Assembly (NCBI GenBank): GCA_000169115.1
Contig: AAVV01000012.1
Span: 1 to 64,000 of the forward strand
DNA: 64,000 bases
Source: a marine gamma proteobacterium HTCC2080
GTDB taxonomy: Bacteria > Pseudomonadota > Gammaproteobacteria > Pseudomonadales > Halieaceae
Direction of reading: 5' to 3'
This document shows positions 25,954 through 27,990 of the stretch, piece after piece. The notes under the pieces are model-generated. The model ran no database searches. It was not told where the DNA came from and saw only the letters and a program-made list of their open reading frames with translations. The stretch's first letter is position 1. Every line of letters begins with the position of its first letter. Position numbers and translations under genes: made by a program.

Positions 25954-26223
25954 TAAAGGCTCGGTCAACGGTTTAGGGAGCAACTCGAAGCGGATCAATT
26001 ACCCATATTAGTCGCGAGTCTTGCAAACAGTCACGGTGACTATTCTGGTCACCAAATATTAGCAGTCAAAGCCTCAGCGCGTTATACCCTTACAACGGAG
26101 GAAAAATAAACTCACGATTACCAATTAGCGCATCCATGTATCCCATTTCGTGCTAAAACGGCTGTCTCTAGTAAAAGATTTTAGCACTGGCACAGCGACC
26201 CAATTTTGGAACCGAGCATAAAC

Positions 26224-27990
26224 ATGAACATTTTAGTCATTAACTGTGGTTCATCCAGCGTCAAATATCAGCTAATAGACTGTCTACACGAAGTGACCGT
26301 GACCGAAGGAGTCACTGAGTTGAGCGCTAACGTTGATGCTGCTGTTGCAGTCAAGCAGCTCCTCCAAAAATTCCGAAATGAAATTATCGATGCAGTGGGT
26401 CATCGAGTTGTTCACGGCGGCGATACTTTTCGAGATGCCGTTTTGATCGACGCAGCTGTGCTTGCGAAAATTCAGGAATGGGTTCCACTAGCGCCACTGC
26501 ATAACCCCCCGGCCTTGGCAGGTATTGAAGCTTCACAGACTGTGCTGGCAGACGTTCCCCACGTGGCGGTTTTTGACACAGCCTTTCATGCGACTCTGCC
26601 CCGCCGGGCTAGTCACTATGCCATCGACACCACGCTAGCTGAAAAACACCGTATCCGCCGCTATGGATTTCACGGCACGTCACACCAGTTTGTTGCCCTC
26701 GAGGCCGCACGGTATCTAGGCCGTCCTCTTAATGAACTCCGGCTGATCACGCTTCATCTGGGAAATGGCGCTAGTGCCTGTGCGGTAGAGATGGGCAGCT
26801 CAACAGAGACCAGCATGGGCATGACCCCGCTAGAAGGGTTAGTTATGGGGTCACGCTCAGGTGATATAGATGCGGGCGTTATTTTCAAACTGCTGCGTGA
26901 CGAAGTTAAAAATGTTGATGAGTTGGACAAGCTACTCAATCTTCGAAGCGGCATCAAAGGTCTATCTGGTCTGAGTCATGATATTAGAGAAATCGAAGCT
27001 GCGGCTGCCTCAGGCCATGACGGTGCGCGCTTGAGCATTGCCGTCTTTGCCCATCGCGTTAAAAAATATATTGGCGCCTACGCCGCAGCAATGGGCGGGG
27101 TTGATGCGGTCATTCTTACCGGTGGCATTGGTGAGAACAGCGCAAGCCTGCGCCAGCGAATATTACAAAGGCTCGAATTTTTAGGCATACAGGTCGATGA
27201 GGATAATAACCAGCACGCTGAAGTTGATCATCAAAATAAAGTTGCGCTCATCACTACAGACAACTCTAGAGTTCCTGCGCTGGTGGTTAAGACAAACGAA
27301 GAGCTTATGATCGCTAGGCAAGCTGCCTGTTTAATCGGGCAACAAGCAAGTCTAAAAACCGATCTCAGTATTCCAATCGCGGTCAGCGCGAGACACTTAC
27401 ACTTAGACAAGCACACCTTCGCTCTTTTGTTTGGGGACGATGCAGAACCCACTCATCATGCAGATCTGTCCCAACCCGGACAATTTTCCTGTAAAGAAAA
27501 GGTTACCTTGGTAGGCACTCGAAATACCATTGAGGGCGTGCGTTTACTTGGCCCGTTACGCAGCAAAAATCAAATCGAAGTTTCCCGTACTGACGAATAC
27601 CTATTGGGTATCGACGCACCGGTCAGAGACTCTGGCAGGGTAAAAGATTCTGCGCCAATAACCCTGAAGGGGCCCAAGGGAATCGTAAAACTGAAGGAGG
27701 GGTTAATCTGTGCTCGCCGACATATTCATATGCATCCAGATGATGCCGAGCGCTTTGGTGTAAAGAATAAAGATGAGGTCGAAGTTGCCATAACTGGAGG
27801 CCCTAGAGACCTTATTTTTTGTGATGTGCTAGTTCGGGTAAGTCATGGCTATCGACTTGAGATGCACATCGATACTGACGAAGCCAACGCTGCCGAGCTT
27901 GATAGACAGTCTATTGGTGAACTTGTTTACAGCGGTGTAAATGACCGTTTGGCATCTATCAGGTGCGCTAAAACAACAAATCAAAATTGA
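26224..27990 (+). CDS. Acetate kinase - PduL phosphotransacylase fusion
   Basis: 588 residues. Residues 1 to about 375 are acetate/propionate kinase: NCGSSSVKY with Asn7, GHRVVHGG with Arg61, YGFHGTSH with His150, MGSRSGDIDAG with Arg211, and NEELMIA with Glu360, all matching catalytic positions. From about 382 a PduL-type phosphotransacylase follows: SARHLHL (His391, His393), SCKEKV (Glu425), ARRHIHM (His500, His502) and EMHIDTDEAN (His548), which match the zinc ligands of PduL. Together the two halves would turn acyl-CoA plus phosphate plus ADP into acid, CoA and ATP in one chain. Most bacteria keep the two as separate genes. An in-frame TTG lies at 26206. No partner gene is adjacent. Confidence 0.9.
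   Translation: MNILVINCGSSSVKYQLIDCLHEVTVTEGVTELSANVDAAVAVKQLLQKFRNEIIDAVGHRVVHGGDTFRDAVLIDAAVLAKIQEWVPLAPLHNPPALAGIEASQTVLADVPHVAVFDTAFHATLPRRASHYAIDTTLAEKHRIRRYGFHGTSHQFVALEAARYLGRPLNELRLITLHLGNGASACAVEMGSSTETSMGMTPLEGLVMGSRSGDIDAGVIFKLLRDEVKNVDELDKLLNLRSGIKGLSGLSHDIREIEAAAASGHDGARLSIAVFAHRVKKYIGAYAAAMGGVDAVILTGGIGENSASLRQRILQRLEFLGIQVDEDNNQHAEVDHQNKVALITTDNSRVPALVVKTNEELMIARQAACLIGQQASLKTDLSIPIAVSARHLHLDKHTFALLFGDDAEPTHHADLSQPGQFSCKEKVTLVGTRNTIEGVRLLGPLRSKNQIEVSRTDEYLLGIDAPVRDSGRVKDSAPITLKGPKGIVKLKEGLICARRHIHMHPDDAERFGVKNKDEVEVAITGGPRDLIFCDVLVRVSHGYRLEMHIDTDEANAAELDRQSIGELVYSGVNDRLASIRCAKTTNQN

Follow-up and report, generated by a model that had tools for sequence, protein, structure and literature searches.

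Can a single bacterial gene cover the whole route between acetyl-CoA and acetate? The question is raised by an open reading frame of the marine gammaproteobacterium HTCC2080, located in a window of 64,000 nucleotides, which is the whole stretch of DNA analysed here. The frame (window 26224-27990, plus strand) starts with ATG and runs uninterrupted through 588 residues to its stop codon, with zero internal stops; of the two candidate starts, the ATG at 26224 is more likely than the in-frame TTG at 26206. Its parts are as follows.

26224..27333, plus strand: AckA domain, residues 1-370, with Asn7, Arg61, His93, Asp118, His150, Asn181, Arg211 and Glu359 (PF00871; alignment to 1g99/1tuu/2iir; AlphaFold model vs 4dq8)
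27334..27369, plus strand: linker, about residues 371-382 (pLDDT dips to about 59 at residues 371-380)
27370..27903, plus strand: PduL phosphotransacylase domain, residues 383-560, with His391, His393 and Glu452 (Zn1), His500, His502 and His548 (Zn2) and Arg446 (phosphate) (PF06130; alignment and AlphaFold model vs 5cuo; ligands per PMC4784909)
27904..27990, plus strand: poorly conserved, low-confidence C-terminal tail (residues 561-588) and stop codon (pLDDT mostly <55)

Both domains are full-length: PF00871 (Acetate_kinase) scored 435.8 bits against a cut-off of 22 bits, and PF06130 (PTAC, the PduL family) scored 237.2 bits against 25 bits. The NCBIfam models TIGR00016 (AckA; 426.3 bits, cut-off 293.4 bits) and NF011652 (PduL; 242.2 bits, cut-off 209 bits) were likewise matched, and the Pfam scan of the 588-residue chain at E 0.001 returned only Acetate_kinase and PTAC, with no further domain. 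Since the E-values were 1.6e-130 and 1.3e-70, chance domain matches are excluded. With an intact ORF and both profiles over their cut-offs, the chain is indeed AckA fused to PduL, as a sequence-only reading of this DNA had proposed. The spacing from the TNEE motif of AckA to the SxRH motif of PduL was 28-32 residues in all measured fusions except two. A microcompartment encapsulation peptide is absent, the chain beginning at AckA and the PduL domain lying directly behind it, which is expected for the non-BMC fused subgroup.

We mapped the AckA residues by alignment to 1g99/1tuu/2iir. The catalytic set (Asn7, Arg91, His123, Asp148, His180, Arg241 and Glu384 in Methanosarcina numbering) was matched completely, by Asn7, Arg61, His93, Asp118, His150, Arg211 and Glu359, and most of the catalytic residues checked were invariant across 49 fusions from several phyla. 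Asn181 is also kept (47 of the 49). Val63 aligns with Val93 of the Methanosarcina enzyme, and valine at this position is typical of acetate-preferring kinases; for this reason, acetyl-CoA/acetate is the likeliest substrate pair.

The PduL residues were placed by alignment to R. palustris PduL (5cuo), whose zinc ligands are His48, His50, Glu109, His157, His159 and His204, with Arg103 binding phosphate (PMC4784909). Their counterparts in the fusion are His391, His393, Glu452, His500, His502 and His548, and Arg446, all of them invariant in the 49 fusions. The CoA contacts Ser45, Arg97, Leu99 and Asn211 (rPduL numbering) are kept as Ser388, Arg440, Leu442 and Asn555. A fifth contact, Lys70, is replaced by Ala413 in a column that varies among fusions; judging by the alignment, such a replacement could alter CoA affinity.

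The residue mapping and the conservation in 49 fusions thus bear out the earlier view that both active sites are complete, bar two glutamate labels. In the AckA half, Asn7, Arg61, His150 and Arg211 were named correctly, but the catalytic glutamate is not Glu360, which is conserved in only 34 of the 49 fusions; it is the neighbouring Glu359, which aligns with Methanosarcina Glu384 and is invariant (49/49). In the PduL half, the five histidines stand, but the Zn1 glutamate, aligned with Glu109, is Glu452 rather than Glu425, another glutamate that is nearly invariant among fusions.

An AlphaFold2 model of the chain, with the alignment of 49 fusions as input, had a mean pLDDT of 84.9 and a pTM of 0.66. 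As a prediction of good confidence, it recovers both folds: the AckA part matched mycobacterial AckA 4dq8 (TMt 0.91) and the PduL part matched 5cuo (rmsd 1.3, TMt 0.90). The pTM of 0.66 leaves the placement of AckA relative to PduL uncertain. The closest solved structures by sequence were the acetate kinases 2iir and 1g99 and R. palustris PduL 5cuo, and no fused structure occurred among the 50 best structure matches listed for the model. The AckA half shares fold and catalytic residues with 2IIR, 1G99 and 4DQ8; its N-terminal region is shorter than in the Thermotoga and Methanosarcina enzymes, as in mycobacterial AckA, and, unlike all three, its C-terminus runs on into PduL. Similarly, the PduL half has the fold, zinc ligands and phosphate arginine of the standalone BMC PduL/EutD-type phosphotransacylase (5CUO) and differs from it in being fused behind AckA and in the exchange at Lys70 described above.

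In the genome (3.58 Mb, 99.4% complete), no substitute for either half was found. It contains one PTAC match, hence no other PduL, and no match to Pta; the full fused protein as a query also found one match, so there is no second AckA at E 0.001. Given that no other AckA-like match, PduL or Pta was found, the gene most likely covers the route from acetyl-CoA via acetyl phosphate to acetate and ATP, which most likely could run in either direction. The C-terminal PduL domain would convert acyl-CoA and Pi into acyl phosphate and CoA, reversibly, at its two-zinc site, and the N-terminal AckA domain would then interconvert acyl phosphate and ADP with carboxylic acid and ATP. Overall, the product is very probably a bifunctional AckA-PduL enzyme, with both activities predicted, that provides the whole reversible Pta-AckA pathway from one gene and replaces Pta; its location is most likely cytosolic. 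A complete Pta-AckA pathway would thus be packed into one gene. The genome also holds a strong match to AMP-forming acetyl-CoA synthetase, so acetate activation need not rely on the fusion enzyme. Pta was absent from three of eight other fusion-bearing genomes, and most of the remainder had PF01515 matches in long frames (757-1181 aa), as would be expected of MaeB-like proteins.

It is tempting to go one step further and suppose that acyl phosphate made at the PduL site reaches the AckA site directly and never escapes on the way. The chain would then act as a single-polypeptide ADP- and Pi-dependent acyl-CoA synthetase, and acetyl phosphate would be kept from signalling and protein acetylation. 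We regard this putative hand-over as rather unlikely. The idea, like the architecture, is already in print: passages of Erbilgin et al. (2016) report the PduL signature in multidomain proteins, most of them annotated as Acks, and propose that PduL may stand in for Pta there and that fusion may facilitate substrate channelling (PMC4784909). The earlier reading had allowed that the fusion might be known, which it was. As described in those passages, the PduL-Ack proteins resemble ours in having PF06130 and an acetate kinase in one chain and no encapsulation peptide, and we found no difference between them and the fusion of the window; the passages name no member proteins and report no assay of a fusion. 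Nor was there an assay of an AckA-PduL fusion among the open-access papers listed by our searches. The family is nevertheless a ready natural system for probing acetyl phosphate channelling.

A different role, as a hub for acetyl phosphate, has some backing among relatives. Here, the fusion would mainly clear acetyl phosphate made by phosphoketolase, PduL turning it into acetyl-CoA and AckA into ATP and acetate. At two related loci (L024, L038), the gene adjoining the fusion, and convergent with it, resembles a phosphoketolase C-terminus by eye; an Acidovorax plasmid has a Pfam-supported phosphoketolase (L175:10065-12485) some 3 kb away from a standalone AckA that is close to the alpha/beta fusions. 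However, clustering of neighbours revealed no phosphoketolase gene at the other fetched loci, and no match to phosphoketolase was found in the window's genome, so a partner of this kind is rejected there. We consider this role improbable overall and unlikely for the window's genome; it may be limited to some other branches.

The neighbours in the window are a divergent aldose epimerase, a spermidine-synthase-domain protein and a patatin-like protein, none of which suggests a shared pathway. The aldose epimerase has close relatives, at 60-63% identity, in G007, a genome of the same genus, and in G012, and lower-identity ones in several other genomes. No conserved operon partner that would pin down the enzyme's role in the cell emerged across the fetched loci, where neighbours were common only within local lineages. 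PADLOC gave no match that would link the locus to defence, and predicted sigma-70 promoters and terminators were about as numerous as in shuffles.

Returning to the bifunctional enzyme, one might ask whether activity is confined to one domain, with the other serving a regulatory role, given that MaeB carries a non-functional Pta-like domain (PMC4207490) and that the CoA-contact lysine column is relaxed among fusions. Against this, the zinc ligands, the phosphate arginine and the catalytic residues of AckA show no or almost no variation in 49 fusions from several phyla, which makes a single active domain very improbable.

The gene itself has an intact counterpart in G007, 84% identical and adjoining the same divergent aldose epimerase gene. 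Identity between the two is 93% across the PduL domain vs 34% in the tail (residues 561-588). Both halves are under purifying selection, dN/dS (Nei-Gojobori; dS near 1) being about 0.10 in the AckA part and 0.04 in the PduL part. In 131 fetched loci from several phyla, AckA and PduL share one reading frame, and over 60 proteins the distances of the AckA half correlate with those of the PduL half (0.78). Although broken copies exist in some relatives (S. meliloti pSmeRU11d, G123), the congener, the low dN/dS in both halves and the 131 one-frame loci rule out a decaying gene as well as the frameshift or misassembly that the earlier reading had named as a refutation, and such an origin is almost certainly wrong.

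Fused and standalone forms were called by frame length and HMM matches on fetched loci, and standalone PduLs were collected by HMM search. In the sample of the host's own class, 12/369 genomes had a PTAC match: nine fused (as a frame or contig-cut frame), two standalone and one remnant. Matches occurred in 7/398 genomes of the own phylum sample (four fused), 4/198 of Bacteroidota (two fused) and 21/198 of Planctomycetota (about eight fused). In Myxococcota, 42/141 genomes had a match, 41 of them with frames of at least 540 aa, the AckA half being HMM-checked in the fetched ones. Thus, the fused form is common among the sampled PduL-bearing genomes and the usual form in Myxococcota, which qualifies the earlier statement that the two enzymes are normally separate. 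A contig search with PduL halves of fusions found 80 loci, nearly all fused, as such a query favours fused ones. Overall, we conclude that the fusion is genuine, widespread in bacteria and an ordinary member of the type noted in 2016.

For most fetched standalone Planctomycetota PduLs, an AckA gene follows at a distance of about 1 kb, and two of the standalone Pseudomonadota PduLs lie beside a gene resembling, by eye, a glycyl-radical activase; these loci are presumably of the microcompartment type. The PduL halves of fusions fall largely together in quick trees. The AckA tree requires several label changes, yet one common origin for the AckA halves of fusions was not rejected (p-AU 0.63, which is compatible with one origin and does not prove it); many independent fusions were therefore not retained as an explanation. 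That run omitted L032 and four further rows that were long or odd, and the Acidovorax row was unconstrained. Within the host's genus, the fused protein was matched in 2/37 genomes, the window's included, while the other 35, many of them incomplete, matched neither it nor AckA; the gene may therefore have been gained or lost as a unit.

Several relatives depart from the two-domain form. In four frames (L188:228-2633:-, L189:1822-4182:+, L190:76-2478:+, L191:1166-3478:+), AckA-PduL is preceded in the same chain by a cyclic-nucleotide-binding domain (PF00027, 52-61 bits); the hosts are three genomes of the Planctomycetota sample and one of the Pseudomonadota sample, and a fifth frame, L129, has the same look by eye. 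Our literature search found nothing on this three-domain variant. Sinorhizobium meliloti pSmeRU11d (L019:7929-9798) carries a 548-aa frame of AckA and partial PduL with a separate PduL remnant, and an S. medicae replicon shows the same two-piece match. The AckA of L032 (G123) retains only a 35-codon PTAC remnant; its place in the tree, among the AckAs of fusions, looks like that of a protein whose PduL half has been lost. At a contig edge (L076:2-1168), a PduL domain is preceded not by AckA but by about 180 unrelated N-terminal residues. Finally, the Polaromonas plasmid pPNAP02 (L018:7236-11630) carries fabI, the fusion and a DUF3141 gene in a row.
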